Assembly: GCF_007474535.1 (NCBI RefSeq)
Contig: NZ_VKNW01000001.1
Coordinates: 248,001 to 312,000 of the forward strand
Reading direction: 5' to 3'
From: Chryseobacterium echinoideorum
GTDB taxonomy: Bacteria > Bacteroidota > Bacteroidia > Flavobacteriales > Weeksellaceae
Length of the DNA stretch: 64,000 nt
In this document: positions 6,265-27,332 of the stretch, one piece after another
Numbering within the stretch: the stretch's first letter is position 1
How the letters are laid out: each line of letters begins with the position of its first letter
The notes under the pieces: generated by a model
What the model was told of the DNA's origin: nothing
Database searches by the model: none
The model's input: the letters and a program-made list of their open reading frames with translations, nothing else
Translations under genes and position numbers: made by a program

Positions 6265-6933
6265 TTAAGAAGCTTCCGTAGATAAAATCCCGATTCCTGC
6301 GCCAGCAACCACATCACTGAACCAATGTTTGTCATTCAACATTCTGTAAACACCGGTGAAAACTGCAAAAGAATAACCGGAAACGCCCAGCCAGAAATTA
6401 GTATCCTTATATTCTAGGTACATAAACTGGGCAGATGCAAAAGCAAATGCCGTATGACCAGAAGGAAAAGATAGCTTATTAGAATGATCTGGTCTTTCTT
6501 CTTTTACTAAATGTTTTGTAGGCATTACAACAGCAGAAGCTAATAATAGCGATGTTCCGTAAATGATGCTTCGGTCCCGGAAATTATGTTTCCCCTCAAC
6601 TCCAAAAGCATTCAATCCATAAACCAAAACGGCAGGAGCAAATTGCGTGTAATTATCCAATCTGATATGGTCTGGTTTATGTTCATTGATTTCATTTCTT
6701 GTTGAGAAATTGAGCTGTTTTAATTTGTCAATTTTCAAAGTTGCAACGCCGTAACTTATAAAAACAGTGGGAATAATCAGCTTCTTGTAACTGAATTGAT
6801 AAGCTTTGTCGAAAGGTAAATGAGCAATAGAAACACTATCAATAGAATCTTTATTTACAGCTAAACTGTCCTGAGCCAAAAGGTTTTTAGAACTTAATAA
6901 TATAATTAATATGCTTGAGAATATTAGTTTCAT
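6265..6933 (-). CDS. PAP2-family phosphatase, C-terminus cut by an in-frame stop
   Basis: A signal peptide (residues 1-20, ending LLAQ) is followed by a PAP2 acid-phosphatase domain. All three motifs are visible: K-x6-RP in KHLVKEERP, PSGH in SFPSGHTAF, and R-x5-H-x3-D in YRMLNDKHWFSD. The domain acts on lipid phosphates or pyrophosphates at the membrane or periplasm. Translation stops with TAA right after ILSTEAS, but the same frame continues for 38 sensible residues (WLYPKINKLLTG onward) to a TGA at 6148-6150. A TAT to TAA change would explain this. The catalytic residues lie before the stop, so the product could still work. The neighbour TauE gene lies just upstream on the same strand. Confidence 0.85.
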   Translation of the reverse strand: MKLIFSSILIILLSSKNLLAQDSLAVNKDSIDSVSIAHLPFDKAYQFSYKKLIIPTVFISYGVATLKIDKLKQLNFSTRNEINEHKPDHIRLDNYTQFAPAVLVYGLNAFGVEGKHNFRDRSIIYGTSLLLASAVVMPTKHLVKEERPDHSNKLSFPSGHTAFAFASAQFMYLEYKDTNFWLGVSGYSFAVFTGVYRMLNDKHWFSDVVAGAGIGILSTEAS

Positions 6934-6950
6934 ATATAATAAATTCTAAA

Positions 6951-7973
6951 TTAACTTTCAAATTTGGTAAGCTGATTGTCTTTGTAACAATAGAATTCGT
7001 AGGAAGGTTCATTTCGGAAAGTGAAAACCTTTTCCAGATGAATGACATCATAATGATTTTTCAGAGCAGCGTATTTGGTTTTAAGATGATTGGGTAATTC
7101 TTCGGGACGAATTGGTCTTTCGATTTCCAAACCGTCATCGAAGGCAAATTCAATCACAAAATCTGTCGACCTCCACGAGATAATCGATTCACTTTTTGCA
7201 ATCGTAATGCCCAATTTATCTTGCTGAATGATTTTATCAGAAGTCCCAATCAATAAAGTAATTCCGGCGACAACCATTGCGCCGTAACCGATTTTTCTGA
7301 AGAGATTTTCACTGAGGTAAGGAAGGATATATTTGACCGTATAAGATGAAATAATCGTTGCCACAGCAATCGCTAATCCCAGCCATAAAGCAAGATTAGA
7401 ATACAATCCCAGAGAAATATAAATGACAAGCTTGATAAGATGCAGAAAAACTTCATTCGCCGCACGAGTAGCAACAATCTCTTCTTTTTTTAATCCGAAT
7501 TTTAAATAAAATCGATTAAATAACAATCCAATTGCGCCAGTAATTCCGGAAACAAATCCTGCCAGAAAACCGATGATTGCCAAAACATATTTCGGAGACG
7601 CTTTTTCATCGGTTTCGTCGTTCTTTACTTTTTTGAAAAGTTGAGGAACATTGGCAATGAGGAAAAAAGCGACAATTAATTGAAGATAACTAGGATTGAT
7701 ATATTTGATGAGGTAAGCGCCCATCAAAACCGCAGGAATTGAAAACGGAACAAACCAAAAGAAAATCTTCCAGTTGATGTGTTTTTTGAAAACCGCAATT
7801 CTTGAAACCGAACTTGTAAACGTCCCGATTGTCAATGAAAACGGAACAACAGAAGCCGGCAACAAAAGGTTTAAAATTGGGATTAAAATAAGGCTTGCAC
7901 CGCCTCCGCAAATCGCACTCAGCCAGAATGCGAGAATGGTTCCGAAGAACAATAAAATAACGTCAACAATCAT
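6951..7973 (-). CDS. TauE/SafE-family (DUF81) membrane permease
   Basis: A 340-residue polytopic membrane protein with about eight hydrophobic helices and the N-terminal signature GGGASLILIPIL typical of TauE/SafE sulfite or organosulfonate exporters. It is longer than usual: the last 80 residues or so form a soluble tail (SESIISWRS to NQLTKFES), predicted cytoplasmic. It is followed 17 bp later by the PAP2 gene on the same strand. The substrate cannot be read from sequence. A second, shorter member of the family lies at 28632. Confidence 0.85.
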   Translation of the reverse strand: MIVDVILLFFGTILAFWLSAICGGGASLILIPILNLLLPASVVPFSLTIGTFTSSVSRIAVFKKHINWKIFFWFVPFSIPAVLMGAYLIKYINPSYLQLIVAFFLIANVPQLFKKVKNDETDEKASPKYVLAIIGFLAGFVSGITGAIGLLFNRFYLKFGLKKEEIVATRAANEVFLHLIKLVIYISLGLYSNLALWLGLAIAVATIISSYTVKYILPYLSENLFRKIGYGAMVVAGITLLIGTSDKIIQQDKLGITIAKSESIISWRSTDFVIEFAFDDGLEIERPIRPEELPNHLKTKYAALKNHYDVIHLEKVFTFRNEPSYEFYCYKDNQLTKFES

Positions 7974-8022
7974 TTTTACTAATAAAAAAGGTTACAGAAC
8001 AAGAGATTGAATTTTATTTTTC

Positions 8023-8148
8023 ACCACAAAAGGCACAAAAGAAAAAAATGCTTTTAAAGAATAAAAAAGTAAAAAGCTTAGTTTAGTATTTCTTTTTTTT
8101 ACTTTTTAGAAATTACATCCACTATAAAACTTTTGTGACTTTTGTGGT
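8023..8148. repeat. 126-bp imperfect palindrome with 22-bp terminal inverted repeats
   Basis: ACCACAAAAGGCACAAAAG at 8023 is mirrored by CTTTTGTGACTTTTGTGGT ending at 8148, with about 19 of 22 bases paired. A nested AAAAAGTAAAAAG / CTTTTTTTTACTTTTT stem lies inside. It sits between the TauE start and the sulfatase terminator. It has no coding capacity and could be a small palindromic mobile or MITE-like element. Confidence 0.5.
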
Positions 8149-8157
8149 TTGGTCTTA

Positions 8158-8204
8158 ATAAAAAAAGGTTACACCATAAATTTTACTTTACAAAGGTGCA
8201 ACCT
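8158..8204 (-). terminator. Rho-independent terminator of the sulfatase gene
   Basis: On the minus strand AGGTTGCACC (8204-8195) pairs with GGTGTAACCT (8175-8166) through one G-U pair and is followed by a run of T. It lies 26 bases after the stop codon of the LTA-synthase-type gene. Confidence 0.75.
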
Positions 8205-8229
8205 GATTTAGAAGATATTTTGAAGAAAA

Positions 8230-10197
8230 CTATTTCGCTTTCATTTTTCCATTTTTAAATCTTTCACTCGCGGTTTGATAATAAGAAATCGTCTCAGAAA
8301 CCAGTTGTGAATTTTTAGATTTGACTTCAGATAAACATTGATTCGATTTTTTCACATCAAATTGTTTTACCTTTTTTCTGTCATCAATCTGAGTGAAAAT
8401 ATTGCCTTTCAACATTCCTAAAGTTCTGTAGTTTCCGATGAAAGCACGTTCGTCGCCAATTTTAGTCTGATTAATGTCTTTTCCGTACAAACTTGTCGTG
8501 TAATTCCAACCCAAATATCCGAATAAAGTCGGCATCAAATCAATCTGAGAAGTCAGACGATTGATTTTCTCCGCTTTTTGAGGAAGATTATAAATAATGG
8601 CAGGAATATGATGTTTGTCGATATTGATTTCCCACTTTCCGGCACTGCTCGCACAATGGTCGGCAACGATGACGAACACTGTGTTTTTGAACCACGATTT
8701 TGTTTTAACATCAGCTAAAAATTTCCCCAAAGCGTAATCGGTATATTTCACAGCTCCATTTCTGTTGCCTTGCGGAAGGTTGATTTTTCCGGCTGGAAAA
8801 GTGTAAGGTTTGTGATTAGAAGTAGTCATCACAAACTGAAAAAATGGCTTGTTGAGTTTACTACTTTTATCAGCATATTTAATCGATTGTTTGTATAAAT
8901 CTTCATCGCAAATTCCCCACGCATTTTCAAAACTCACTTCATTGTCCGGAATATTGAAACGCTGTGTTTTGATTTCGTCTGACAAAGGATTTCCACGATT
9001 TCTGTCTACAATATCAAAGCCCTGTCCTCCGAAAAAATTATTCATATTGTCAAAATAACCGTCACCACCATAAATAAAATAAGGCTGATAATTTTTCTCT
9101 TTAAAAATCGTAGCCACAGAAAACAAATTCTGATTGTCTGGTCTTCTCACGATACTATTTCCAGGAGTCGGCGGAACAGACAAAGTCAAAGCTTCCATTC
9201 CACGCACAGTTCTGGTTCCGGTTGCGTATAGATTGGTAAAGAAAATACTTTCGTTAGCCAATTTATCATAGTTTGGAGTAAGATTGTCTTTGTTCCCGAA
9301 AGCTTTCAGAAAATCTCCGCTGAAACTTTCTATCGAAATCAGAATGACATTCGGGCGTTGCTCATTTTCAGATTTGGTATTTCTTGAGATGTCATCCCAT
9401 TTGTTGGAATTGTATGTTTGATTTTCCTGTAAAAGATTTTTCTTCAGAACAGAATACGCTTCTTTATCATCAATTTTCGGGTAAAAAGTTTCGTAGTCTA
9501 ATTCATTGGATTTGAAAGCGGTGAAAAATGAAAATGTTCCGTTTTTTCCTAATTCATTTAAAACTAAATTATTGGTAAAATCCGCCTGTTTGTTTTTCAA
9601 TAGTAAACTTAAAATTAAAGCTGGAATCAATACAGAAAAAAGAACAAATCGTTTGAAAATCGGTCTTTTATCTGAAAATGTATTCCTGAATATTTTTCTT
9701 TTTTGAAGGAAAACGAATGTTAAAACAATCAAGGCAACTAATACAAAAATGATTAATGGCAACGGATAAGATTCGTTGATATTGGAAATAACTTCGTAAG
9801 TATAGATCAGATAATCAACCGCAATAAAATTGAATCTCACTCCAAATTCATCCCAAAAAGGAATCTCCGCCAACAAACTGAAATAGATGACGAGAAGTAC
9901 AATCGCCAGATAAACGTATGTGAAAATCTTATCGAATCTGGAACCAATCCATCGTTTCGGAAAAACCAAAAGATAAATTGAATACAATAATAAAAATAAA
10001 GTTCCAACCGCAAAATCATAGCAAAACCCTGTGAAAAATGCCCTTGCAATATAGAGCAAATTAAAATCTAAATCTTTCGATGACCAAAACAGAAATCCAA
10101 TTCTGATAAGGGTTGCAAATAAAATATATAAACTTAAAATTGAGAATAATACAGCAAATCTGCTGGAAAATATTTTTTGAAATTTTTTAAGAATCAT
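8230..10197 (-). CDS. LTA synthase / MdoB-type membrane sulfatase (phosphoglycerol or phosphoethanolamine transferase-like)
   Basis: 655 residues. Five N-terminal membrane helices (to about residue 205) anchor a large periplasmic alkaline-phosphatase-fold domain. Motifs visible are VILISIESFSGDF (metal-binding Glu), YATGTRTVRGMEAL (candidate nucleophile Thr), FVIVADHC (metal-binding Asp-His) and KHHIPAIIY (metal-binding His). The family transfers phosphoglycerol or phosphoethanolamine to envelope glycans. In Bacteroidetes the true substrate is unknown. It lies 60 bp downstream of the histidine kinase and has its own upstream tandem repeat at 10237-10256 matching the repeat before the response regulator, which suggests it is a regulon member. 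It ends in a clear terminator. Confidence 0.87.
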   Translation of the reverse strand: MILKKFQKIFSSRFAVLFSILSLYILFATLIRIGFLFWSSKDLDFNLLYIARAFFTGFCYDFAVGTLFLLLYSIYLLVFPKRWIGSRFDKIFTYVYLAIVLLVIYFSLLAEIPFWDEFGVRFNFIAVDYLIYTYEVISNINESYPLPLIIFVLVALIVLTFVFLQKRKIFRNTFSDKRPIFKRFVLFSVLIPALILSLLLKNKQADFTNNLVLNELGKNGTFSFFTAFKSNELDYETFYPKIDDKEAYSVLKKNLLQENQTYNSNKWDDISRNTKSENEQRPNVILISIESFSGDFLKAFGNKDNLTPNYDKLANESIFFTNLYATGTRTVRGMEALTLSVPPTPGNSIVRRPDNQNLFSVATIFKEKNYQPYFIYGGDGYFDNMNNFFGGQGFDIVDRNRGNPLSDEIKTQRFNIPDNEVSFENAWGICDEDLYKQSIKYADKSSKLNKPFFQFVMTTSNHKPYTFPAGKINLPQGNRNGAVKYTDYALGKFLADVKTKSWFKNTVFVIVADHCASSAGKWEINIDKHHIPAIIYNLPQKAEKINRLTSQIDLMPTLFGYLGWNYTTSLYGKDINQTKIGDERAFIGNYRTLGMLKGNIFTQIDDRKKVKQFDVKKSNQCLSEVKSKNSQLVSETISYYQTASERFKNGKMKAK

Positions 10198-10236
10198 TAC
10201 TTTTTACGCGTTTAAAAACGTGTAAAGATGAAACTC

Positions 10237-10256
10237 AATTTAGAAGAAATTTAGAA
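10237..10256 (-). promoter_or_regulatory. Tandem 11-bp repeat, predicted OmpR-type operator of the sulfatase gene
   Basis: Minus strand reads TTCTAAATT-TC-TTCTAAATT, a perfect 9-bp direct repeat with an 11-bp period, the geometry of OmpR/PhoB-type sites. It begins 40 bp before the sulfatase start. Closely similar repeats lie before the response-regulator gene and, weaker, before the Cys-rich gene. Confidence 0.5.
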
Positions 10257-10257
10257 T

Positions 10258-11541
10258 TTATAGTTTTACCGAGAAAATATGATTATTATTTTCGAATCTG
10301 TAATCAACAGTCCAATTCTGAGATTTGCAGATTTCTTTCACAATTGCGAGTCCAAGTCCGCTTCCGTTATTGTCTTTCGAGAATCTTGAAAACCGTTTGA
10401 ACAGCAAATCTGAATTCAATTTTTCTGTTCCGGAATTAGAAACTTCAAAAACGGAATTGTTTAATTTAATAGAAATTGAACCGTTAATCGGAGTATGTCG
10501 AATAGCATTTAAAATTAAATTATTAATCAAAACTTCAGTTAACCCAATGTTTCCGTTCACTTTTATATCAGTAGAAATTTCGGTTTTTACAGAGATATTT
10601 TTTTGTTCAAAATGTTCCTGCAGAATTTCCATACTTTGATTCAGTAATTCGTCCAGATGTATTTCAGAATTCTCAAACTGATTATTTTCAATTTTTGCTA
10701 ATAATAAAAGGTTTTTATTGATTCTTGAACTTCTGGACAAAGCGCGGTTCATTTCTTCTGCAATTTGATATTGTTTCTCCGTCAAATCTTGATTTTGTAA
10801 AAGAATATCAAGTTTGTTTTTCAGAATCGCCAAAGGCGTTTGCAACTCGTGAGAAGCGTTTTCCGTAAACTCTTTCTGAGTTTTGTAAACCGAAATATTT
10901 TGTTCTATCAACTTACTTAATGATTGATTAAGTTCATCAAATTCGGAAACATCGGTTTTGGAAAATTCAATCTTAGTTTGTTGATTTAGATTGAAGGTTT
11001 TTAATTTATCTAAAGTATTTCGAAAAGGTTTCCAAACCGATTTTGAAAGTCTTCTGTTGAGGAATAACAATCCGCCGACAATCAGAATAAAAAGAATAAC
11101 CGTCGTCACCGAGATGAAAAAAATGGTTTCCTGAGATTCTTCGATATTGGTTTCTATGTTGAAACGATATGGTTTTTGATTGAGATAAATAATCTTGGAC
11201 AAACATCTGAACCTGTCGATATCTTCAAAATCCAGAAAATCGTGTGGCTTTTCTACAATGAAAATACTGTCTTTGAAATTGTCGTTTTTCTTTACATTCT
11301 GTATGTTGGTCGTTGGCTGTACATCGTTCCAGAGCTTTATAGTTTCAATTAATTTTTGTTCAGATAATTTTAAACTGTTGATTTGAGAAGATGTTTTCTC
11401 GGCAACAATTTCATTATGCTCGTCCAGTTCGTGTTTCCAAACCGCATCTACTACAAGATAATATATAGGAATACTGATGACCAGAATAATCAGGACATAA
11501 ATGATGAAGGGTTTTGTGGTTTTATTAAGTAGCGGTTTCAA
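10258..11541 (-). CDS. Sensor histidine kinase of an OmpR-type two-component system
   Basis: 427 residues with a membrane helix at about 12-32, a periplasmic sensor region of roughly 105 residues, and a second helix at about 140-162. The dimerisation box is ASHELQTPLAIL with phospho-acceptor His231. The ATPase domain has an N-box (LINNLILNAIRHTP) and a G-box (GSGLGLAIVKEI). A HAMP-like linker lies between helix 2 and the H-box. The gene starts 12 bp after the response-regulator stop, so the two are co-transcribed. The ligand is unknown; the predicted regulon (envelope sulfatase, Cys-rich metal-linked protein) hints at metal or envelope stress. Confidence 0.9.
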   Translation of the reverse strand: MKPLLNKTTKPFIIYVLIILVISIPIYYLVVDAVWKHELDEHNEIVAEKTSSQINSLKLSEQKLIETIKLWNDVQPTTNIQNVKKNDNFKDSIFIVEKPHDFLDFEDIDRFRCLSKIIYLNQKPYRFNIETNIEESQETIFFISVTTVILFILIVGGLLFLNRRLSKSVWKPFRNTLDKLKTFNLNQQTKIEFSKTDVSEFDELNQSLSKLIEQNISVYKTQKEFTENASHELQTPLAILKNKLDILLQNQDLTEKQYQIAEEMNRALSRSSRINKNLLLLAKIENNQFENSEIHLDELLNQSMEILQEHFEQKNISVKTEISTDIKVNGNIGLTEVLINNLILNAIRHTPINGSISIKLNNSVFEVSNSGTEKLNSDLLFKRFSRFSKDNNGSGLGLAIVKEICKSQNWTVDYRFENNNHIFSVKL

Positions 11542-11553
11542 ATCAGTTGTAAG

Positions 11554-12231
11554 TTAAGAATTTTCCCATTTGTAGCCTGTTCCATACACAGTTTTCAGAT
11601 AAGGCTCACAGCCTGCGTCATTTAGCTTTTTCTTCAGATTTTTAACATGCGCATACACAAAGTCGTGATTATCCAACATATCTGCAAAATCTCCGGAAAG
11701 ATGCTCAGCTAAGGTACTTTTTGAAATGACTTTGTTTTTATTTCCGATAAAATAAATCAGCAAATCAAACTCTTTTTTAGTCAATGCAATCACTTCATTA
11801 TTAACGGAAACTGTTTTTGACAAAAGGTCAATTTGTAATTCATTTTGAGTAATGACATTAGAATTATTGAATTGCTTCCTACGAATAATAGAATAAATTC
11901 TCGCCATCAATTCGGACAAATGAAATGGCTTTGTGAGATAATCGTCTGCACCCAATTGCAAGCCTTTAATTTTATCATCCAAGGCATTTTTTGCTGAAAC
12001 TATGATAACACCGTCTTGTTTATTTTGAGATTTCAATTCTTCCAAAATTTTGAGTCCGTTGCCGTCAGGAAGCATAATGTCTAGAATAATACAATCGTAC
12101 TGAAACGTTTCTATTTTATACATTGCTTCAGTGAAAGTCTCTGCAAACTCACACAGATAGTTTTCTTCGGAAAGGTATTCTGCAACACTTTTCGCCAATT
12201 CGGTTTCGTCTTCTATAATTAGGGTTTTCAT
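11554..12231 (-). CDS. OmpR/PhoB-family response regulator
   Basis: 225 residues: an N-terminal receiver domain with acidic pocket (IIEDE), phospho-acceptor Asp51 in IILDIMLPDGNG, and the conserved Lys in LTKPF. A C-terminal winged helix follows (KEFDLLIYF, ending in YLKTVYGTGYKW). It is first in an operon with the histidine kinase. A tandem 11-bp repeat lies 55 bp upstream and probably serves autoregulation. Close relatives include CusR/CopR and RprY-type regulators; I cannot choose between them from sequence alone. Confidence 0.92.
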   Translation of the reverse strand: MKTLIIEDETELAKSVAEYLSEENYLCEFAETFTEAMYKIETFQYDCIILDIMLPDGNGLKILEELKSQNKQDGVIIVSAKNALDDKIKGLQLGADDYLTKPFHLSELMARIYSIIRRKQFNNSNVITQNELQIDLLSKTVSVNNEVIALTKKEFDLLIYFIGNKNKVISKSTLAEHLSGDFADMLDNHDFVYAHVKNLKKKLNDAGCEPYLKTVYGTGYKWENS

Positions 12232-12996: not shown

Positions 12997-13590
12997 CTAC
13001 TGCTCATTTTTAATATCTGAATATCTAAAAATCTTAGGCTTCATTTTTCTAAAAATCCAGAAAAACAATAGACCATTCAAAACACCAAGAAATATCGGAA
13101 CTATAACATCACTAGGATAGTGTACGCCAAGGTAAATTCTGCTGTAGGAAACAAAAAATGCCCAAGGAAATAGAACGTATGGCATCCATCGTATGTTTTT
13201 ATAAGTTACTATACTCAGGTAAGTGGCAAGTGAAAAAACATTTAAAGTATGTGCAGATACAAAACCATATTGACCGCCTGTATAACCATTGACATAATGC
13301 AGAAGATTTTGCAATCCTTTTTGGTGACTTGGTCTTAGTCTTTCAAAAATTGGACGAATAATGGATGCTGCTAATTGGTCGCTCACAGTTATCAATGGTA
13401 AAATGAGGATAATCAGCCACCAGCTTTGTTTTTTATATTTTAAAATTAAAACGATTAAAATGGAAAGGTAAAATGGGATCCAGCTTAGTTTTCCGCTTGC
13501 AAACCACATCAATTGATCCAAAAAATCTGTATGATGACCATTGATCCATAAAAGGATTTCTGTGTCAATTTTTAATATAAAGTCTTTCAT
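12997..13590 (-). CDS. PAP2-family membrane phosphatase in the fluoride operon
   Basis: 197 residues with about six hydrophobic segments. PAP2 motifs are R-x6-RP (RPIFERLRP), a variant SAH in place of PSGH (YGFVSAHTLN), and SR-x5-H-x3-D (SRIYLGVHYPSD). The family includes undecaprenyl-pyrophosphate and lipid-phosphate phosphatases. The gene starts 7 bp after the DUF190 stop, so it is very probably expressed from the fluoride-riboswitch leader together with the CLC antiporter. Fluoride inhibits many phosphatases, so a link is plausible but inferred. Confidence 0.87.
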   Translation of the reverse strand: MKDFILKIDTEILLWINGHHTDFLDQLMWFASGKLSWIPFYLSILIVLILKYKKQSWWLIILILPLITVSDQLAASIIRPIFERLRPSHQKGLQNLLHYVNGYTGGQYGFVSAHTLNVFSLATYLSIVTYKNIRWMPYVLFPWAFFVSYSRIYLGVHYPSDVIVPIFLGVLNGLLFFWIFRKMKPKIFRYSDIKNEQ

Positions 13591-13597
13591 CTTATTT

Positions 13598-13954
13598 TCA
13601 GTTAGAATCGTAATTAAATTTATGATTATTGATAAGTATTAAATGTGTTGCCCTTAAAAGCTCTGCGTTTTCATTCAAGAAAATTTTTAATTTATTATAG
13701 TCATCAATCAACTCTAAACAAACAGGGTTTTCAGATGAAGGGATTTCAGAAATATTATATTGAATACGGCCACTGCTTAAATATCCGCTTTTTGCAGTAA
13801 AAATATTGGCTTGCTTGATAGAACTTTGCTTGGCCTTTTTCAAAAGATAATCTCCTAAATTATTATTCCAAATTCTTCTCCAAAAGTTCTGCCCTGTTAC
13901 TGATTGTCCGTATCGGAAATATATTTTTACGATGGCTAAATTTTCTGTATGCAT
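13598..13954 (-). CDS. DUF190-family (PII-like) protein linked to fluoride export
   Basis: 118 residues from the preferred ATG at 13954 (MHTENLAIVKIYF), which has an A-rich leader. An earlier in-frame ATG at 13975 overlaps the CLC gene by 11 bp. The pattern VKIYFRYGQS, then a long helix (YLLKKAKQSSIKQANIF), then PVCLELIDDYNKLKIFL matches the DUF190 family, which has a PII-like fold and is often encoded with CrcB/Fluc or CLC-F fluoride exporters. Its biochemical role is not established. It lies between the CLC and PAP2 genes with almost no spacing. Confidence 0.7.
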   Translation of the reverse strand: MHTENLAIVKIYFRYGQSVTGQNFWRRIWNNNLGDYLLKKAKQSSIKQANIFTAKSGYLSSGRIQYNISEIPSSENPVCLELIDDYNKLKIFLNENAELLRATHLILINNHKFNYDSN

Positions 13955-13964
13955 TGTTTTAGTT

Positions 13965-15269
13965 TTAAAGTTCATTTAATCTTTTTCCGGTATAACTTCC
14001 AAACCTGTTGTGTTTAGGTTCGCCAATCATCTGTCTACCATAGATACTGTTATGCCCTGAAAATAGATAAGCAACTACGCACGCAATAGCAACATAAACG
14101 CTGCAATCACTCCCGAAAAGTTCGATTGCCATAATACTGCAAGCCAACGGTGTATTGGTGGCACCTGCAAAAACCGCTACAAAGCCCATTCCTGCCAAAA
14201 GCCCTGTTGGTAACGGAATAAAATAGCCCAATGCATTTCCCAATTCAGCTCCGATAAAAAATAAAGGTGTAACCTCACCACCTTTAAATCCTGCTGCTAA
14301 AGTAACAATGGTGAAAATCATTTTTAATGCAAAATCGTAGGCAGGTAATTGCTGTTCAAAAGACGAAACAATAGTAGGAATTCCTAACCCAATATATTTT
14401 GTAGTTCCTAAAGCCCAAACTGCGGTTGCAACTAAAATACCTCCAACCAAAGGTCTTAATGGAGGATAAGAGATTTTTGCTTTAAAAATTTTGCTTACTT
14501 GATGAATGGTTTTGCTGAAAAGAGCAGCACATAGCCCGAAGGCTATACCCGCAGTAATTGCATAAAGACCATTTAAAAAAGAAAAATCAGGAATGGTCGG
14601 AATATGATAATGAGTATGCCCGGTTTTCCAAAGTTTTGTGACCAAGTCTGCGATGATTGCCGATGCAAATGCAGGAAAAATCGAATCATATTTAAGTCTT
14701 CCAATCAAAAAGACTTCTAACCCAAAAATCGCTCCAGCCAACGGTGTTCCGAATACAGAAGCAAAACCTGCGGCAATGGCAGAGATTATCAGAACTTTTC
14801 TTTCATTTGGATCGAGTTTTAGTGGTTTTGTAAATTGGTCGGCAATAGATCCTGCCATTTGTATTGCAGTTCCTTCTCTTCCGGCAGATCCTCCAAAAAG
14901 ATGTGTCGCGAGTGTACCGAGATAAACAAATGGTGCCATACGAAATGGTATAATCTCTTTAGGGTCGTGAATGGTATCGATCAATAGGTTGTTGCCGGCT
15001 TCTACTTCTTTGCCGAATTGATGATAGATGTATCCAATCACGAAACCGGCTATGGGAAGAAGGGCAATTAACCAAAGGTGATTTTCCCGAAAATCAGTAA
15101 CCCAGCCTAATGTTTCTAAAAATAATGCGGACGCAGTTCCGATACAAGATCCAAGAATAAGGCTAATCAATAACCATTTGATGACATAGGGAAGGATTGG
15201 GTAAGCTCTAAAAAATGCTTTTGTTCTAATAAGGGATCTCTGCCCTTTAGATTTTTGATAATGACGCAT
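13965..15269 (-). CDS. CLC-type antiporter, probable fluoride-specific CLC-F
   Basis: 434 residues with about ten or more membrane helices and the CLC ion-path motifs. The first filter motif, GSGIP in chloride CLCs, is GNNLL here, and the GREGP motif is GREGT. Both variants are features of the fluoride/proton antiporter clade. The gene follows a fluoride riboswitch and is followed by DUF190, which supports fluoride as substrate. It exports fluoride across the cytoplasmic membrane. It is the first gene of the CLC-DUF190-PAP2 operon. Confidence 0.87.
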   Translation of the reverse strand: MRHYQKSKGQRSLIRTKAFFRAYPILPYVIKWLLISLILGSCIGTASALFLETLGWVTDFRENHLWLIALLPIAGFVIGYIYHQFGKEVEAGNNLLIDTIHDPKEIIPFRMAPFVYLGTLATHLFGGSAGREGTAIQMAGSIADQFTKPLKLDPNERKVLIISAIAAGFASVFGTPLAGAIFGLEVFLIGRLKYDSIFPAFASAIIADLVTKLWKTGHTHYHIPTIPDFSFLNGLYAITAGIAFGLCAALFSKTIHQVSKIFKAKISYPPLRPLVGGILVATAVWALGTTKYIGLGIPTIVSSFEQQLPAYDFALKMIFTIVTLAAGFKGGEVTPLFFIGAELGNALGYFIPLPTGLLAGMGFVAVFAGATNTPLACSIMAIELFGSDCSVYVAIACVVAYLFSGHNSIYGRQMIGEPKHNRFGSYTGKRLNEL

Positions 15270-15276
15270 AATATAT

Positions 15277-15311
15277 CCTGATTAAATGTTGAACATTCAA
15301 TTTTAATCAGG
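15277..15311 (-). promoter_or_regulatory. Expression-platform hairpin of the fluoride riboswitch
   Basis: CCTGATTAAA and TTTAATCAGG form a perfect 10-bp stem, with a further TTGAA/TTCAA pairing inside the loop. Its 5' arm overlaps the 3' end of the riboswitch core (the GGCGCC-T part) and its 3' end lies only 7 bases from the CLC start codon. With no T-run after it, translation control is more likely than termination. Confidence 0.6.
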
Positions 15312-15360
15312 CGCCATCAGCTTTTTAGGGCGGTTGGGTAAGGGAGACACCATTCCCTTT
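15305..15360 (-). ncRNA. Fluoride riboswitch (crcB motif)
   Basis: Reading the minus strand, AGGGA-ATGGTGTC-TCCCT forms the first stem-loop. It is followed by CCCAACCGCCC, a short A-rich loop and GCTGATGGCGCC. The loop GGTGTC can pair with GGCGCC to make the pseudoknot that defines this class, and the GCTGATGGC string is diagnostic. The downstream genes are a CLC-F type antiporter and DUF190. A -7 box TATCTTTG (15379-15372) lies just upstream, inside the 26-bp gap after the previous gene. Confidence 0.85.
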
Positions 15361-15371
15361 TTTTGAATAAT

Positions 15372-15379
15372 CAAAGATA
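15372..15379 (-). promoter_or_regulatory. -7 box of the fluoride operon
   Basis: TATCTTTG on the minus strand fits the Bacteroidetes TAnnTTTG consensus. It would start transcription just before the riboswitch core. I do not see a good -33 TTG. Confidence 0.5.
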
Positions 15380-15386
15380 ATAAAAA

Positions 15387-15860
15387 TCAATGACCTAAGA
15401 CATAGTCTTTAAGAATTTCTGCTATTCCAAGCTCACAATTGATTCTGTTCCTTTCACTCATTGCAGGGAATGGAACACTTTTGATAAATAAGACTTCTGA
15501 TAATTTTGCTCTTTCTATAGCCATTAAAACAAATTTTTCAATATCTTTCATTATAATGATAATACATTTGGGACGGTGTGTTCTTAATCTTTTCGAAAGC
15601 GAGTCAACATTTTCAGAACGTTGTTTATTTCTGATTATCATATCCTTTCTGTCAATTTCTTCAGTCACCAAATATTCAATTTTGCATTTTATTTCCTCAA
15701 AAAATGCTAAAAAATCAATATCAGTTTCAAAGTTACCAAATTGCATTTCAAAGGCTGACTTTACGCTCCTGTACAAAGGTGTATTGCATTTGTAAAAAGA
15801 TTTTGTATCAGAAGATTTTGCTTCAGTGATCAGTAAGATTTCTGTTGCCATTTCAAACAT
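15387..15860 (-). CDS. Hypothetical protein, possibly uracil-DNA-glycosylase-like fold
   Basis: 157 residues, with a second possible start at 15851 (MATEILLITEAKS). It is soluble with no signal. The layout FLAFFEEIKCKIEYL, then LRTHRPKCIIIIMKDIEKFV, then SVPFPAMSERNR recalls a family of UDG-superfamily-like hypothetical proteins, but I cannot see a convincing catalytic motif, so the match is tentative. It lies 20 bp after the YncE-like gene on the same strand, and its stop is 26 bp from the fluoride-operon leader. Confidence 0.6.
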   Translation of the reverse strand: MFEMATEILLITEAKSSDTKSFYKCNTPLYRSVKSAFEMQFGNFETDIDFLAFFEEIKCKIEYLVTEEIDRKDMIIRNKQRSENVDSLSKRLRTHRPKCIIIIMKDIEKFVLMAIERAKLSEVLFIKSVPFPAMSERNRINCELGIAEILKDYVLGH

Positions 15861-20800: not shown

Positions 20801-23089
20801 TTAATAAACCAGCGATATTCCCGCTCCCCATCCCATATCACTGTCATAATGAGCTCGGATTCCGATGTTTTTGTTGATGATGTATTTGAGTTCACCCATA
20901 TATTCTTTATCGGTATTTACCATAAATCCTCCTCTCAACCTTTTAGAAATAGGAATATCCTCACGCATCAACGTTAATCTTACAATACCATCGTGATAAA
21001 CTTCTGCCTGAAAGTTGACCAGCATCGGCAAAGTGTACATAATACCCAAACTAAATGCTCTTCGGGTATCTTTTTCGTTGGTTTGCCCAAACAGGTTTTT
21101 TTCTTGCTCGTCAATTCCCATTTTACGGTATCGCCAGTCGAAACCAATAAAAGGCATCAGCCATTGCATTTTCCCGATGTATCTGCCAAAATGAGTTTCC
21201 ACTTCATAACCGTGCATACTGTTATAACCCAATCGCCAATCTGTACCCAAGCTCCATCTTGCATTTTGCAACATTGCCTGTCCGTCATTTCCGTTGGTCG
21301 CAAAATCATTTTCTGCCATAAAGTGAGGCATATTGCTTTCTTTCTGCAACATATTATAGGCTTGTTTTCTGTCTGGTAAATTTGGATTTTGATAGTCACC
21401 GACTGCAAAAACACGGTTCATACCTGACATCATATGATACAGAATGTGGCAATGGAAAAACCAGTCTCCTTCTTCATTTGCAAGGAATTCAATAGTGTCG
21501 GTTTCCATTGGCATAATATCCAAGACGTTTTTAAGGGGCGATTTTTCTCCTTTTCCGTTAATTACCCTGAAATCAAAACCGTGAAGGTGCATCGGATGGC
21601 GCATCATCGAGTTGTTGTAAATGGTAATGCGTAAGATTTCACCTTTCTTCACAGGAATTTTATCCGTCTCAGAAAGGATTTTATTATCCATACTCCAAAC
21701 ATAGCGGTTCATATTTCCGGTAAGGGTAAATTTCAAGTCCTTTACAGGCGCATCTTTAGGAAATGTAGTATTGTATGGAGATTGCAACATTGAATAATTA
21801 AGCGTTGTAATATCTCCCAAAGCATTGGCATTGTAACGATTCTGGTCGTCGTCCATCTTCATTCCGGATTTCATATCCGTAGTATGTTGGCTGTGGTCTT
21901 GTTGCTTTCCGGTTTTTCCGGTAATTTCGGGATACATTACAACGTTCATATCCATTTTGTTCAGGCTCATTTTCATTCCCATATCATCCAGGTCGCCGTT
22001 CATTTTCATCATACCGTTCATCATTTTCATTCCTTCAAAATATTTGAGACGGGGAAGTGGGGAAATCAACTGTTTGATACCGTTACCCACAAAATAACTT
22101 GCAGACTGCGTTCTGTCTTCGGTTGTTGCCAAAAATTCATAAGCCACGCCGTCAGAAGGAATTGTAACGACCACATCATAGGTTTCAGAAACACCGATAA
22201 TCAACCTGTCAACTTCTACAGGTTCTACATCGTTGCCGTCATTAGCGACTACTGTAATTTTTCCACCTGCATAACGCAACCAAAAATATGAAGAAGCTCC
22301 ACCATTGGATATTCTCAATCTCACTTTGTCGCCTGCTTTCAAAGATTTGCCATCGATGTTTTTTAAATCAGTAATATTGTTACCATTCATTAATACTTTG
22401 TCGTAATAAACATCGCTTACATCCATTGCCAGCATCCGTTTCCATTCGTTTTTTAGCTTGGTTTTAAAATAACCCTCACGAATGGCTTCTGCATAAGATT
22501 GTGTCGCATTTTTTTTAATCGCAGCCCAATCATTCGCATTATGAAGCATTCTGTCAACATTTTTTGGATTGAGGTTGGTCCATTCGCTTAAAACAATGGG
22601 AACTTCCGGCAAATCATCTATTTCTTTTCTAAATGTTTTGTCATCCTTTCTTTTCTTCATCACAAAGTTTCCATACATCCCAATCTGCTCCTGCAATCCC
22701 GAATGCGAGTGGTACCAGTGCGTTCCGTTTTGTTTGATAGGAAAACGATAGGTGTACGTTGCACCTGGTGCTATAGGTTTCTGTGTAAGCCAAGGAACGC
22801 CGTCTTCTTTATTGGGGAGAAACACACCGTGCCAATGGAGAGAAGTACTTTCTTTCAATTGATTATGAACAACGATTTCTGCGATGTCACCTTCTGTAAA
22901 AGTCAGTGTAGGCATTGGAATTTGTCCGTTTACTGCAATGGCTCTTTTTTCCTTACCTGCATAATTAACTAAGGTATCTTTTACAAACAACTCATAACGT
23001 ACGACTTTCTGTGCGAAAAACGATTGTGAAAATAACAGGAAAAAAAATGCCTGTAAGAACCGTGAAATATTATTTCTAAGTATACTCAT
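20801..23089 (-). CDS. copA: CopA-type multicopper oxidase with CopB-like C-terminal domain
   Basis: 762 residues with a signal peptide (LLFSQSFFAQ). Copper motifs are HWHGVFLP, HWYHSHSGLQEQ, HPMHLHGFDF and FFHCHILYHMMSGM, giving type 1 and type 2/3 sites. A Met-rich insert lies at about 345-385 (MKMMNGMMKM, MGMKMSLNKMDM), as in Cu(I)-oxidising PcoA/CopA. After residue 590 a beta-barrel-like region resembles CopB/PcoB (WLMPFIGFDWRYRK, IGIRAHYDSDMGWGAG), so this is a CopA-CopB fusion. It probably detoxifies Cu(I) in the envelope. The HMA-DUF3347 gene lies 7 bp upstream in the same operon. Confidence 0.9.
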   Translation of the reverse strand: MSILRNNISRFLQAFFFLLFSQSFFAQKVVRYELFVKDTLVNYAGKEKRAIAVNGQIPMPTLTFTEGDIAEIVVHNQLKESTSLHWHGVFLPNKEDGVPWLTQKPIAPGATYTYRFPIKQNGTHWYHSHSGLQEQIGMYGNFVMKKRKDDKTFRKEIDDLPEVPIVLSEWTNLNPKNVDRMLHNANDWAAIKKNATQSYAEAIREGYFKTKLKNEWKRMLAMDVSDVYYDKVLMNGNNITDLKNIDGKSLKAGDKVRLRISNGGASSYFWLRYAGGKITVVANDGNDVEPVEVDRLIIGVSETYDVVVTIPSDGVAYEFLATTEDRTQSASYFVGNGIKQLISPLPRLKYFEGMKMMNGMMKMNGDLDDMGMKMSLNKMDMNVVMYPEITGKTGKQQDHSQHTTDMKSGMKMDDDQNRYNANALGDITTLNYSMLQSPYNTTFPKDAPVKDLKFTLTGNMNRYVWSMDNKILSETDKIPVKKGEILRITIYNNSMMRHPMHLHGFDFRVINGKGEKSPLKNVLDIMPMETDTIEFLANEEGDWFFHCHILYHMMSGMNRVFAVGDYQNPNLPDRKQAYNMLQKESNMPHFMAENDFATNGNDGQAMLQNARWSLGTDWRLGYNSMHGYEVETHFGRYIGKMQWLMPFIGFDWRYRKMGIDEQEKNLFGQTNEKDTRRAFSLGIMYTLPMLVNFQAEVYHDGIVRLTLMREDIPISKRLRGGFMVNTDKEYMGELKYIINKNIGIRAHYDSDMGWGAGISLVY

Positions 23090-23096
23090 ATTTCGG

Positions 23097-23972
23097 TTAT
23101 TTTAAAGTTTCAACCGTACTTCCACAACTCAACATCTGCGAACCGTAGTATGGATTTTTAACCGCTTCTTCTTTGCTTAACCAGTTTGCTCCTTTACCAT
23201 TGTTAAACATCGGACAATTTTGATAATACACCGGAGTATCCTGTTTTGTAACTTTCATTACTTTATAAATGTTATCAGAAAGCGAGGTGAAATGGTCTCT
23301 CTGATGTGAAGCATCTTTTGTGTCTGAGATGTGTTCTGCATCGAAAGCAAGGTCTTTCATTACGTTCATCCAAACGGTATGTTCTTCAGATGAAAGTTTT
23401 GTCATATCAATACTTTGAATAGCTTTTGTCAATGCTGAAGCTTTAGTAGATGCAGTCGCTCCATCAGATTTTATCAAAGCATCTTTCAAAGAAAAGTAGT
23501 TTTCAAATACTGATTTGAAAGTGGGTTGGTTTTGTTGTGCTGAATGTCCCATCACCATTTCATTATGGTTATGATTGTTGTGTTCAGATTTCATATCCAT
23601 AGCATTATCTTTAACAAGAACAGTTGGTTTTAGTTCTCTTTTGTATTGGCAGCATTCAGGAAGCTTTGAATAGACATCATCCGGAGCCAGGAATTTTTCG
23701 CTGTCATAACCGGCTAATGCAATACGTTTCAAAATTTCATCATGATTGGTTTTCTTTTCATCATAAATCAGAGTTGCGATTTTTGTGTCTTTGTTCCAAT
23801 TTACCTGGGCTATATTTTTCAGATTTCCTGCTTTCTCTATGTTAGATTTACACATATCGCAGTTGCCATAGATTTTGATGGTTTCTGTTTTTGCATTTTT
23901 AACTTGAGCGAAGATGTTGATTGATGAAAGCAATACAGTGATTGCCATCAATATTTTTGATATTGATTTCAT
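23097..23972 (-). CDS. Periplasmic HMA-DUF3347 copper-binding protein
   Basis: 291 residues: signal peptide to NIFAQ, then a heavy-metal-associated domain with the Cys pair in YGNCDMCKSN, a His/Met-rich linker (HNNHNHNEMVMGH), and a C-terminal DUF3347 domain (FKSVFENYFSLKDALIKSDG, ending with NCPMF and MLSCG). It resembles periplasmic copper chaperones that feed export systems. It is first in the operon with the multicopper oxidase. Confidence 0.85.
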   Translation of the reverse strand: MKSISKILMAITVLLSSINIFAQVKNAKTETIKIYGNCDMCKSNIEKAGNLKNIAQVNWNKDTKIATLIYDEKKTNHDEILKRIALAGYDSEKFLAPDDVYSKLPECCQYKRELKPTVLVKDNAMDMKSEHNNHNHNEMVMGHSAQQNQPTFKSVFENYFSLKDALIKSDGATASTKASALTKAIQSIDMTKLSSEEHTVWMNVMKDLAFDAEHISDTKDASHQRDHFTSLSDNIYKVMKVTKQDTPVYYQNCPMFNNGKGANWLSKEEAVKNPYYGSQMLSCGSTVETLK

Positions 23973-24105
23973 AAGAATTTATATTTTGAGAAATAGATTT
24001 TTGCACATCCATTTCTGATTAAATTTAAAATTGATTTTATAGTGGATAAGCCAAAAGCACATTTGATTTTGACAAGACGGAATTATGGCTGTTAAACCAA
24101 TAATT

Positions 24106-24489
24106 TTAACTTATTTTTGGAGGTTGCCAAATGGAGCAGTGTCCTAAAGAATAATAGGATTGCGTGAATTCAAATTGACGTTTTTCAATTGCATCAAAAG
24201 AAGTATTTGATTTGAAATAGGCAGGCATCAAAAAGCTGAATGAGGAGTTACCACATCTGCAAGAGCTGTCTTTGCATTTGCCATTACAACCGTTATTGTC
24301 TTGATGGTCTTTGCAAGATTTAGTTTTACAACAGTCTTTTTTTTCTGCTTTCTCGTGATGACTTTTAGAAACTTTCTGATGTTCAGTTTTAACTGGAGTT
24401 TTTGAACAGGCATAAATTAAGTTGGGAGTCAATAGAAATCCCAAAAATACAAATAGAATTAAAGTGATATGTCTGTTCCAATTTTTCAC
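24106..24489 (-). CDS. Small Cys/His/Lys-rich exported protein, probably metal-binding
   Basis: 127 residues with an N-terminal signal peptide or anchor (LILFVFLGFLLTPNLIYAC). The middle is rich in Cys, His and Lys (KKDCCKTKSCKDH, CNGKCKDSSCRCG), with about ten Cys. The C-terminal 45 residues lack them. I do not recognise a named family. The position between copper and arsenic genes supports metal binding. A weaker copy of the OmpR-type tandem repeat lies 76 bp upstream, and a TAnnTTTG-like box (24495-24502) sits very close to the ATG. Confidence 0.7.
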   Translation of the reverse strand: MKNWNRHITLILFVFLGFLLTPNLIYACSKTPVKTEHQKVSKSHHEKAEKKDCCKTKSCKDHQDNNGCNGKCKDSSCRCGNSSFSFLMPAYFKSNTSFDAIEKRQFEFTQSYYSLGHCSIWQPPKIS

Positions 24490-24564
24490 TTAGACAAATT
24501 TATGAATTTATTTTTTGATAATTATTAATTTAGAAACCTTTAAATTTATACAAAGTTCAAATTG

Positions 24565-24584
24565 AATTTAGAAGAATTTCTGAA
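24565..24584 (-). promoter_or_regulatory. Weaker OmpR-type tandem repeat before the Cys-rich gene
   Basis: Minus strand TTCAGAAAT-TC-TTCTAAATT. One half site is identical to those at 10.24 and 12.29 kb; the other matches at 6 of 9 bases at the same 11-bp spacing. Confidence 0.35.
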
Positions 24585-24621
24585 GTTTACAACTCTATGT
24601 TGAATTTTTAAAAAAATAGTC

Positions 24622-25650
24622 TTAATCATTATTATATTTCTTCTTCAACCACAAACTGACTTTTACCAATAAGATAAGCACAGGAACTTCTACCAATGGC
24701 CCAATAACACCCACAAAAGCTTGTGGAGAGTGAATGCCAAAAACAGCTATTGCTACAGCTATCGCCAATTCGAAGTTATTACCGGTGGCTGTAAATGCTA
24801 TTGAAGCATTTTTATCATAGGGTATGTTTAGAGATTTATTGATAAAGAAGCTGACAAAAAACATCAGTACAAAATAGATGACCAACGGTACGGCAACTTT
24901 TATCACATCCATTGGCAGTTCTAATATTTTATCTCCTTTCAGACTAAACATTATTACTATGGTAAATAGTAAAGCATACAATGTGATTGGCGATATTCTT
25001 GGAACAAACTTTCTGTTATACCATTCTATACCTTTTGATTTGATAAGAAAATAACGACTTAGAAAACCTGCTAGAAATGGAATACCTAAATAAATCAATA
25101 CACTTTCTGTAACATCTTTTAGCGATACAGTTACATTGAAGTTGGCTAACCCTAATTCGCTTGGCAATACATTGATAAATAACCAAACTAAAAAGCTGTA
25201 AGAAACAACTTGGAAAATACTGTTCAATGCAACCAGCATAGCGGTATACTCTCTGTTTGCTTTAGCTAAATCACTCCAAACGATGACCATTGCAATACAT
25301 CTCGCCAAGCCTATCAGTATCAATCCTGTCATATAATCAGGTTCATTTCGGAAGAACAAAACCGCCAATCCGAACATCAGTACAGTCCCAACAAACCAGT
25401 TGAGAAATAACGAAAGACCTATTACTTTTTTATCTTTGAAGGCTTGAGGTAATAGTGAATAATCAACTTTTGCCAAAGGAGGATACATCATCAAAATAAG
25501 ACCAATTGCCAATGGAATATTTGTCGTTCCTACTGACATTGCATTTGTGATTTGTGAAATTGCAGGAAAGCAATATCCTAAACTAATCCCAGCTGCCATT
25601 GCAAGAAATATCCACAAGGTAAGGTAGCGGTCAAGAAATTTTAGTTGCAT
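24622..25650 (-). CDS. arsB: ACR3-family arsenite efflux permease
   Basis: 342 residues, ten membrane helices. Family landmarks include [20 protein letters not shown] with the conserved Cys used for As(III), and the late segment [20 protein letters not shown]. It exports arsenite. Last gene of the arsenic operon, 4 bp after the arsenate-reductase-like gene. Confidence 0.93.
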
Positions 25651-25654
25651 AAAA

Positions 25655-26266
25655 CTATTTTTTAATCATAGAAAAAACGTAGAACACTTCAGAAGCGATC
25701 TGCAAACTTCTTTCCGCATATACTTGCGACTGCTGTGGTGTGTTATCAGAAATTTTAGGATCTTCATATGTGATAGGGATTCTTTTCTCTGCTCCAGCAA
25801 TGAAAGGACAACCGCCGTCTGCTTGAGAACAGGTCATAATTGCTGCAAAACCGGATGTAGGATTGAACGCACTATCATATCTTTTTGAAAATCCAATTAC
25901 AGGTAACGAATCACCATTGTACTTGATAGCATATACAGGGTTATTTCCATCTGCAATTTTGAAGATATTAAAGCCTTGATTAATGAGCGTCTCAGCCACT
26001 TTTGGAAATAATGCGGTTTCTTCCGTACCTCCCGAATAACAATGTACATTAGGAATATTGAAATAGGCAGCTCCTGCTTGCGCCCAGATTTGTGATAGAT
26101 GGCTTCTGCGTGAATTGTGGGTACAAATAAAATTGATATTAATATCTTTTCCTTCATCCATTTTTTGCTGTACAAAATCAATTAATGGCTGCAATGTGAT
26201 TTTCCTTTCCTCACTAATGCATTGATGTTGCAATTGTTCTATAGTATTTATTAATTCTGAATACAT
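25655..26266 (-). CDS. Arsenate reductase-like low-molecular-weight phosphatase
   Basis: 203 residues. The P-loop is [14 protein letters not shown], with the catalytic Cys near residue 48 and the C-x5-R pattern of LMW-PTP/ArsC. Further features are [14 protein letters not shown] (the resolving-Cys region) and a long N-terminal helix. This Bacteroidetes form is longer than classical ArsC (about 130-140 aa). It probably reduces arsenate to arsenite for ACR3, whose gene follows 4 bp later. Confidence 0.87.
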
Positions 26267-26292
26267 AGTCGTTGTTTAAGTTTTATTCTTTA

Positions 26293-26784
26293 TTAATCTA
26301 TTCCGATATTTTTGCTTCTACGTTCCATAAGGACGTTATCTTTCCAAACTCCATTTTTCTTACCTATCTTTTCTCGATAACCAACTAATCGGAATCCGCA
26401 TTTCTCGTGCAGCCTGATACTGCTTTCATTTTCAGCAAATATACCAGACTGCAATGTCCATATGCCATTTTCTTCGCTCCGTTGAATTAATCCAGCTAAA
26501 AGAGTTTTCCCAATTCCCTTACCTCGTTCGTCTTGTGCAATGTAAATGCTTACCTCTGCAACACCAGCGTAAACGCACCTGCTTGAAACTGGTGTCAAAG
26601 ATGCCCAACCAAGCATCTTGTCACTATCATAAATGCTGATTCTACAAAAATCGAGATGTCCTTTATCCCATTCTTCCCATTGTGGGGAATCGTTCTGAAA
26701 AGTGGCTATGTTGGTCGCCAAGCCTTGATTGTAGATTTCGATTACTTCTGAAAAGTTGTCTTTGGTTATAGGTTTGATTTCCAT
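26293..26784 (-). CDS. GNAT acetyltransferase of the ArsN/phosphinothricin type
   Basis: 163 residues from the ATG at 26784 (MEIKPITKDNFSEV). An upstream in-frame ATG would overlap the DUF6428 gene and add a non-conserved 35-residue lead. The acetyl-CoA motif is VSIYIAQDERGKGIGKTLLAGL and the C-terminal part has HEKCGFRLVGYREKIG. It resembles phosphinothricin/ArsN1 acetyltransferases; in ars operons these often act on organoarsenicals. That role is inferred from context. Confidence 0.87.
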   Translation of the reverse strand: MEIKPITKDNFSEVIEIYNQGLATNIATFQNDSPQWEEWDKGHLDFCRISIYDSDKMLGWASLTPVSSRCVYAGVAEVSIYIAQDERGKGIGKTLLAGLIQRSEENGIWTLQSGIFAENESSIRLHEKCGFRLVGYREKIGKKNGVWKDNVLMERRSKNIGID

Positions 26785-26797
26785 AATGCAGTCTTTT

Positions 26798-27262
26798 TTA
26801 GCAACAACCTGACTTGGGAGTACAGCAAGTGTTATTCGAATCAGATGATTCCACAATTTGATTTTCTTCTGAAATTCCACAAGCCTCATTAGCCAGACAG
26901 GCAGTTTGTTTATTTTTCAGAACAAAATTATTTCCGTTAAATTCCAAATCATATTTACCAATGGTCTCGCTTTGATATTCAACTTCTATCTCCGAATCTT
27001 CGATTCCCAGTTTGTCTTCGCATAGTGAGATGATGTCAAGGAGTTTTGTAGGCTTCAATCTATGTTTAAAGTCGTTCGCATCCCACAATTGGAAATTGAC
27101 AACCTTTTTATTTCTGGTATTGCCACCACAGTCTATAAAATTCTTTGTGATAACACCTATTTCTGTAATGTGGAAATGCTCTGGAACAAATTTCCCATTC
27201 TCTAACTGAAATTCGACATTGTTCAGTGTAGGTAAGATTTCTTTGATTTTTGATAGCTTCAT
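26798..27262 (-). CDS. DUF6428-family protein with Cys-rich tail (ars operon)
   Basis: 154 residues, soluble. The core (FQLENGKFVPEHFHITEIG, FQLWDANDFKHRLKP) matches a small Bacteroidetes family seen in arsenic operons. The last 35 residues carry eight Cys including CCTPKSGCC, which could bind As(III) or metal. It is the first gene of the arsenic operon and an ArsR operator lies 29 bp upstream. Confidence 0.78.
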   Translation of the reverse strand: MKLSKIKEILPTLNNVEFQLENGKFVPEHFHITEIGVITKNFIDCGGNTRNKKVVNFQLWDANDFKHRLKPTKLLDIISLCEDKLGIEDSEIEVEYQSETIGKYDLEFNGNNFVLKNKQTACLANEACGISEENQIVESSDSNNTCCTPKSGCC

Positions 27263-27290
27263 AATAATTAATATTTAGATTGTTTAATTT

Positions 27291-27309
27291 TATATTGCAA
27301 TATGACGAT
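27291..27309 (-). promoter_or_regulatory. ArsR-type operator before the arsenic operon
   Basis: TATATTGCAATATGACGAT on the plus strand; 18 of 19 bases match the element before arsR at 27675. It contains the perfect 12-bp palindrome ATATTGCAATAT, the usual shape of ArsR sites. Confidence 0.65.
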
Positions 27310-27332
27310 GATATAGATTGCAAAATAAGCTG

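Follow-up and report, generated by a model that had tools for sequence, protein, structure and literature searches.

Why should a riboswitch-led fluoride operon end in a gene for a membrane phosphatase? The question is raised by a locus on the minus strand of a 64,000-nucleotide (nt) stretch of Chryseobacterium echinoideorum DNA (hereafter the window), in which a fluoride riboswitch precedes genes for a CLC-F antiporter, a DUF190 protein and a PAP2-family phosphatase. The switch, the exporter and DUF190 are already known in kind; for the phosphatase, a reading of the letters alone (hereafter the sequence-only reading) had suggested that it may protect or replace a fluoride-sensitive phosphatase step. 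Building on what can be observed directly (aptamer, leader hairpin, gene order, family membership and the recurrence of PAP2 at other fluoride loci), we propose that this is a switched export operon riding on a horizontally moving island, in which PAP2 would back up the phosphatase BacA (UppP). We give this account as a whole, island included, a probability of about 45%.

The aptamer is complete, as the sequence-only reading had held. It scores 42.3 bits against the curated gathering cut-off of 34 for the fluoride riboswitch (crcB motif, RF01734), with E 2.4e-8 and the full model covered (1-64/64; cmscan), and nothing else in the window reaches an Rfam gathering threshold; a chance match is ruled out by the E-value and by conservation of the leader in relatives. 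Family loci with the aptamer 3' motif upstream of CLC-F gave 44 distinct leaders, and an alignment was made of 40 distinct leaders. The ten pairs of P1 and the pseudoknot are formed in all 40 (400/400 cells), two P1 pairs showing changes on both sides and the four counted pseudoknot pairs being invariant. The pseudoknot partners GGTGTC and GGCGCC are where they had been placed, and so is the -7 box: TAnnTTTG, which we take to be the -7 consensus, lies 6-16 nt 5' of the first GG of the aptamer in 43 of the 44 distinct leaders, compared with 3.2% of letter shuffles. As in known RF01734 systems, CLC-F lies directly downstream.

Spacing, Pfam matches and similarity to a solved structure bear out the tight operon that had been described: CLC-F and DUF190 overlap by 11 nt, DUF190 and PAP2 are 7 nt apart, and the riboswitch and all three genes appear to form a single unit. 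After PAP2, the next family-matched minus-strand gene is a response regulator 765 nt on, with a 73-aa open reading frame (ORF) between. The CLC protein scores 265.7 bits with PF00654, and its best solved relative is 6d0j, a CLC-type F-/H+ antiporter (E 4.7e-62, 213.5 bits); an ordinary Cl- channel is ruled out, as the best ClcA match is much weaker (E 4.6e-13, 52.1 bits). It carries GGSAGREGT and GNNLL, GGSAGREG being common to 6d0j, and we take a GREG stretch and an Asn or Met near the anion site to be CLC-F signatures. The DUF190 protein (COG1993) scores 30.9 bits with PF02641 (cut-off 23.4) and has no NCBIfam match; the term DUF190 has no occurrence in the review PMC11139923.

The PAP2 protein scores 69.5 bits with PF01569 (cut-off 27.2) and has all three motifs, RPIFERLRP, VSAH and SRIYLGVHYPSD, which presumably hold the catalytic residues; the first begins with Arg where we take Lys to be usual, and the second is the variant SAH motif noted earlier. 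It misses the NCBIfam equivalog cut-offs for SepP undecaprenyl-diphosphatase (40.2 against 250 bits), PRK11837 undecaprenyl-diphosphate phosphatase (32.9 against 229) and PRK10699 PgpB (31.3 against 261), and because the undecaprenyl-diphosphatase cut-offs are missed it is classed as PAP2 only. PAP2-type undecaprenyl-diphosphatases include YbjG, PgpB and BcrC. The window protein resembles them in superfamily, motifs and build (a membrane protein of ~185-200 aa) and differs in falling far under the equivalog cut-offs, despite which it may still work like one.

PAP2 enzymes are not known to need a metal. BacA is described as requiring divalent cations, calcium serving best, and three quarters of the C55PP phosphatase activity is credited to it, with the rest going to PAP2 enzymes (PMC5852022); fluoride is described as forming tight complexes with the calcium or magnesium cofactors of enzymes (PMC11139923). 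These points together lead to the hypothesis of a metal-independent bypass. CLC-F would export F-, and PAP2 would be an accessory metal-independent lipid-phosphate phosphatase, most likely acting on undecaprenyl diphosphate, that keeps carrier-lipid recycling running when fluoride complexes the Ca or Mg needed by BacA. The fluoride-sensitive step of the sequence-only reading would then best be sought at BacA/UppP. Besides the cation requirement, the undecaprenyl link is supported by the annotation of plasmid-borne relatives and by a PAP2 remnant that runs into bacA/uppP, both described below.

Recurrence of the phosphatase was followed through DUF190: a search for DUF190 relatives covered 173 genomes of the genus and 296 of the family and gave matches at E 0.001 in 12 and 19, respectively. 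Fifteen loci around strong matches were read, weak matches (E 2e-7 and above) being left out. A fluoride riboswitch is present at all 15, and PAP2 stands in the same tight run at nine of the 16 DUF190 sites, the window included. The others of the nine are L127-L133, with the order riboswitch-CLC-DUF190-enolase-PAP2 and, at four of these seven sites, EamA ahead of PAP2, and L135, with CLC-DUF190-PAP2, where the last two genes overlap by 4 nt. L127-L130 share a single leader sequence and are probably one mobile element, the PAP2 of L129 being identical to that of L128 and L130; L127-L133 count as one origin. On a tree of PAP2, the seven distinct tight-operon proteins require three label changes, at least two of them forced by well-supported branches (four changes, two forced, with the remnant copies added), which points to more than one origin of the operon PAP2. 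At L122-L124 a pair of PAP2 genes takes places 11 and 12 of a co-directional run (12 and 13 in L123, which has a split gene), at L136 PAP2 lies 12 kb further on, and at L125, L126 and L134 there is none in the stretch read.

PAP2 also adjoins fluoride riboswitches in a different phylum. In Enterobacter sp. Z1 plasmid CP099720 and Klebsiella pneumoniae plasmid NZ_CP017986, a PAP2 gene (186 or 192 aa, annotated undecaprenyl-diphosphatase) stands between two of them. The first faces a usp-eno operon, to which Klebsiella adds a DHHA2-domain protein, phosphoglycerate mutase and crcB; the second, on the other strand, leads CLC-F and DUF190. These islands are like the window in that PAP2, CLC-F and DUF190 adjoin, and unlike it in that PAP2 precedes CLC-F. 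Matched by accession, the plasmid records whose DUF190 is at least 89.9% identical (29 of them) coincide with those whose PAP2 is at least 79.8% identical, the two genes lying ~1.75 kb apart in the rows compared; as near relatives they are counted as one event, and riboswitches were scanned in two of them. Twelve of the 29 PAP2 proteins are annotated undecaprenyl-diphosphatase, and 17 bear no annotation beyond PAP2 family. The DUF190 listing has 16 further records, with 13 more beyond it, and none of these 16 is among the 40 PAP2 records listed, beyond which there are 106 more. An Adhaeribacter plasmid has an RND-PAP2-EamA group convergent with a riboswitch-led enolase-CLC-DUF190-crcB run, and on an Emticicia plasmid the stretch read shows a riboswitch with CLC and NhaA, and no PAP2.

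The remnant belongs to a cassette (riboswitch-PAP2 remnant-EamA-enolase-CLC-F) found in 13 genomes, all from a single genus outside the window's family (f55/g125; L182-L184, L226-L235), ten of which were picked for having the same riboswitch scores as the first three. The copies are 99.7-100% identical over 3.77 kb, which points to a single very recent spread. In the copies looked at, PAP2 is matched for ~140-150 residues; the remnant (L183:7439-7993, minus strand) then runs, in another frame, into roughly the final 27 codons of bacA/uppP (24.2 bits over profile positions 230-256 of 257, a fragment under the 33.4 cut-off). A whole-genome scan recovered this bacA end in all four f55 genomes tested, and a full-length BacA lies elsewhere in all 14 genomes scanned. 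The junction suggests that PAP2 and uppP were once neighbours within a fluoride operon; a model built from 8 BacA proteins found no intact uppP in the 341 genes that make up the runs at 127 sites.

Known fluoride operons join exporters to spare copies of fluoride-blocked enzymes such as enolase and pyrophosphatase. The enolase that accompanies PAP2 elsewhere follows this logic as a second isozyme: the L128 operon enolase shares 95-100% identity with its operon counterparts in the window's family, 73% with those of the f55 operons and 51-58% with non-operon enolases (25 genomes searched), and in operon-bearing genomes it is an additional copy. A single enolase is present in the window's genome. 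In Enterobacter cloacae FRM, a riboswitch operon is shown to carry spare copies of enzymes that fluoride inhibits (PMC5533749), and the logic is reviewed for enolase, pyrophosphatase and haloacid-dehalogenase phosphoesterases (PMC11139923). As described there, the FRM operon (ppaC-uspA-eno-gpmA-crcB-orf5249; PMC5533749) is likewise riboswitch-led and island-borne and combines an exporter with spare fluoride-sensitive enzymes, and its use of enolase recurs in L127-L133; the window operon differs in having CLC-F, DUF190 and PAP2 and neither enolase nor pyrophosphatase. The terms undecaprenyl and PAP2 have no occurrence in the main text of that paper.

Within its own genome, the window operon is an accessory fluoride site. 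A second riboswitch, at C23, leads CLC-F alone; a riboswitch is present in 33 of 59 relatives searched, and CLC-F follows it in all 34 stretches read (the relatives' sites and this second site). From 13753 to ~19150 (5,399 bp), the window DNA shares 95.6% identity with a genome from a different genus (G319), against 81-82% at the housekeeping enolase loci of the two genomes, which indicates a recent transfer. Similarity to another genome, G009, is 87.0% over 6,369 bp. Both similarities stop inside DUF190, a break that fits a separate arrival of PAP2, of which the nearest relative seen (83% in protein, 80% in DNA over 532 bp) is in G009. At 20801-27662 (minus strand) the window also holds genes for a multicopper oxidase, an SBF-type (ACR3-like) permease, GNAT, DUF6428 and ArsR-like proteins, named by Pfam or by clustering with L128 genes; this arsenic/metal-resistance neighbourhood is partly common to L127-L132. 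One genome, G079, has two copies of the same fluoride/arsenic island (L128, L129) ~46 kb apart on one contig.

The strongest rival takes PAP2 for a passenger that came from an envelope/metal-stress module of the same multi-resistance islands (two-component system, PepSY, TolC-HlyD-RND, PAP2, EamA), joined DUF190 by recombination, and is co-transcribed without doing anything for fluoride. We consider this quite possible, and a number of observations count for it or otherwise against a role in fluoride resistance. In G009, G067 and G096 the nearest relative of the window PAP2 belongs to an RND/two-component cluster, and in G009 the gene lies 11 kb downstream of the fluoride genes, behind that cluster. 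The island bears arsenic-type genes, and similar PAP2-EamA clusters occur with no fluoride genes in the parts read of Pseudomonas and Delftia plasmids. One genome, G142, has the PAP2 of L132 alone with the same 3' flank (L137:7924-8493, plus strand) and with no riboswitch, CLC-F, DUF190 or enolase beside it. In the two enterobacterial plasmids scanned no riboswitch lies directly in front of PAP2. All 13 f55 copies are broken, motifs 2 and 3 being missing, which shows PAP2 to be dispensable there. At the 53 other family sites read, which have no DUF190 in their runs and of which 50 are CLC-F-led, PAP2 is missing from 51, and the remaining two have a loosely placed gene of another PAP2 clade behind a short ORF. 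A class sample (45 of 46 sites over the cut-off, 42 after three near-identical copies were dropped, 40 with a gene run) gave PAP2 four times in 110 run genes and twice in 246 flanking ORFs of at least 100 aa, which is not significant (p = 0.076), and one of the four is broken and two are distal. A strong enrichment in a larger set (p = 5.8e-6) was not used, as that sample was partly chosen by DUF190 hits; it also counts one near-identical cassette three times (L182, L227, L233) and takes in distal PAP2 genes of a 13-gene run.

Against a mere passenger stand the tight placement of PAP2 (spacing between neighbouring genes runs from an overlap of 4 nt to a gap of 42 nt) in three riboswitch-led layouts that have no RND genes, and its 29/29 linkage in the enterobacterial plasmids, near relatives though they are. 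The expectation that PAP2 would be conserved in relatives holds at nine of 16 DUF190 sites and fails at 51 of the 53 others; PAP2 is not a standard part of fluoride operons, and its being a constant part in this family is rejected. That it is linked to fluoride at all is partly supported, by its recurrence in DUF190-type operons and beside riboswitches in another phylum, with the 51 sites and the p-value of the class sample pulling the other way. EamA was likewise rejected as a constant partner, 25 of 30 EamA loci (~3.4 kb or less each) showing neither PAP2 nor CLC-F, and a lipid-flippase role considered for it was abandoned.

Similar phosphatases in the fluoride clusters of other bacteria hint that fluoride may also harm cell-wall lipid recycling. 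In its widest form, which we hold to be doubtful, carrier-lipid recycling would be a physiological target of fluoride through inhibition of BacA/UppP, and metal-independent PAP2 would have been recruited as a bypass more than once, in Bacteroidota and in enterobacterial plasmid islands, in several cases beside a spare enolase. If true, this would add the cell envelope to a fluoride regulon so far known to cover glycolysis and pyrophosphate, the recurrent lipid phosphatase hinting at a further target, lipid-carrier recycling, that is undiscussed in the fluoride literature covered. A term search of the literature returned no link of PAP2, undecaprenyl or BacA to fluoride; the 2012 fluoride-riboswitch gene lists fell outside its scope, and absence from print is not shown by it.

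Alternatively, PAP2 might be an LpxE- or PgpB-like phosphatase of lipid A or glycerophospholipids that alters surface charge and Ca/Mg binding, or membrane permeability, under fluoride. Its best solved relatives are indeed LpxE (6ebu, E 3.1e-8) and PgpB/YodM (5jki, E 2.5e-5), but this similarity is weak and at family level, and with 12 of 29 plasmid relatives annotated undecaprenyl-diphosphatase and a broken copy running into uppP we think such a role improbable.

How the switch would govern these genes is suggested by the end of the leader. In all 44 distinct leaders a hairpin CCTGAT...TCAGG is followed 5-7 nt on by the ATG, and in all 40 aligned leaders the stem at this distance reads CCTGAT/(A/G)TCAGG. 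Nine hairpin pairs were counted, with 93.6% of cells formed; the first five are invariant in the 40 leaders and the sixth is kept in all of them, once as G-U. The hairpin opens with two C that also close the pseudoknot strand GGCGCC. When this strand is barred from pairing, as it would be in the fluoride-bound aptamer, the mean unpaired probability of the GG before the start codon rises from 0.00 to 0.57, with an increase in 40/40 leaders, and the mean minimum energy changes from -10.3 to -4.3 kcal/mol; the AUG is mostly unpaired with or without the block (0.69 and 0.82, respectively). Because the GG is freed in this way, and because the window hairpin is followed by ATATATTATG and no T run, with no terminator found there in a scan of the minus strand, control is most likely translational and ON upon fluoride, activation being expected as in other crcB-motif systems. 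The aptamer itself is no different from theirs; the window leader differs in ending in a hairpin just before the start codon. Fluoride binding would fix the aptamer pseudoknot and capture the two C whose alternative partner is the GG, and the hairpin, deprived of its closing G-C pairs, would let CLC-F be translated, followed by DUF190 and PAP2 off the same mRNA. Start-site masking is weakened by three points: the hairpin has no compensatory change in the 40 aligned leaders, only conservation and G-U changes; exposure of the GG in the energy test follows almost by construction; and Shine-Dalgarno use is weak in Bacteroidota. Transcription termination, as in Bacillus cereus crcB, is nevertheless very improbable, for although terminators overlapping the motif are described for many class members (PMC2864571), the window hairpin lacks the T run and every leader hairpin ends within 5-7 nt of the ATG. 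The leader series offers a natural set of similar, probably translational fluoride switches.

Table 1. Features of the fluoride operon and its leader (window positions).
Feature	Position	Strand	Evidence or remark
Operon promoter -7 box TATCTTTG, Bacteroidota-type	15372..15379	-	read in sequence
Fluoride riboswitch aptamer RF01734	15301..15366	-	cmscan
Pseudoknot 5' strand GGTGTC	15346..15351	-	sequence and cmscan alignment
Pseudoknot 3' strand GGCGCC	15310..15315	-	sequence; final two C also in platform hairpin
Expression-platform hairpin CCTGATTAAA...TTTAATCAGG	15277..15311	-	minimum free energy fold; ends 7 nt before ATG
CLC-F fluoride/proton antiporter, 434 aa	13965..15269	-	PF00654
DUF190 protein, 125 aa	13598..13975	-	PF02641
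PAP2 membrane phosphatase, 197 aa, last gene of the operon	12997..13590	-	PF01569

Among the surroundings of the operon, a 157-aa protein without Pfam or NCBIfam match is encoded just upstream of the riboswitch (15387-15860, minus strand) and is kept there in G009, G067 and G096 (87-88%) and in G319 (98.7%). Beyond the operon, at 6265-12231 (minus strand), lie genes for a response regulator, a histidine kinase, a sulfatase-domain membrane protein, a TauE-like transporter and a second PAP2; a related cluster in G009 continues to an RND pump, two PAP2 genes and EamA. At L168, a long riboswitch-led run has the order CrcB-DUF190-CYTH-unknown-enolase-pyrophosphatase-metallophosphoesterase.

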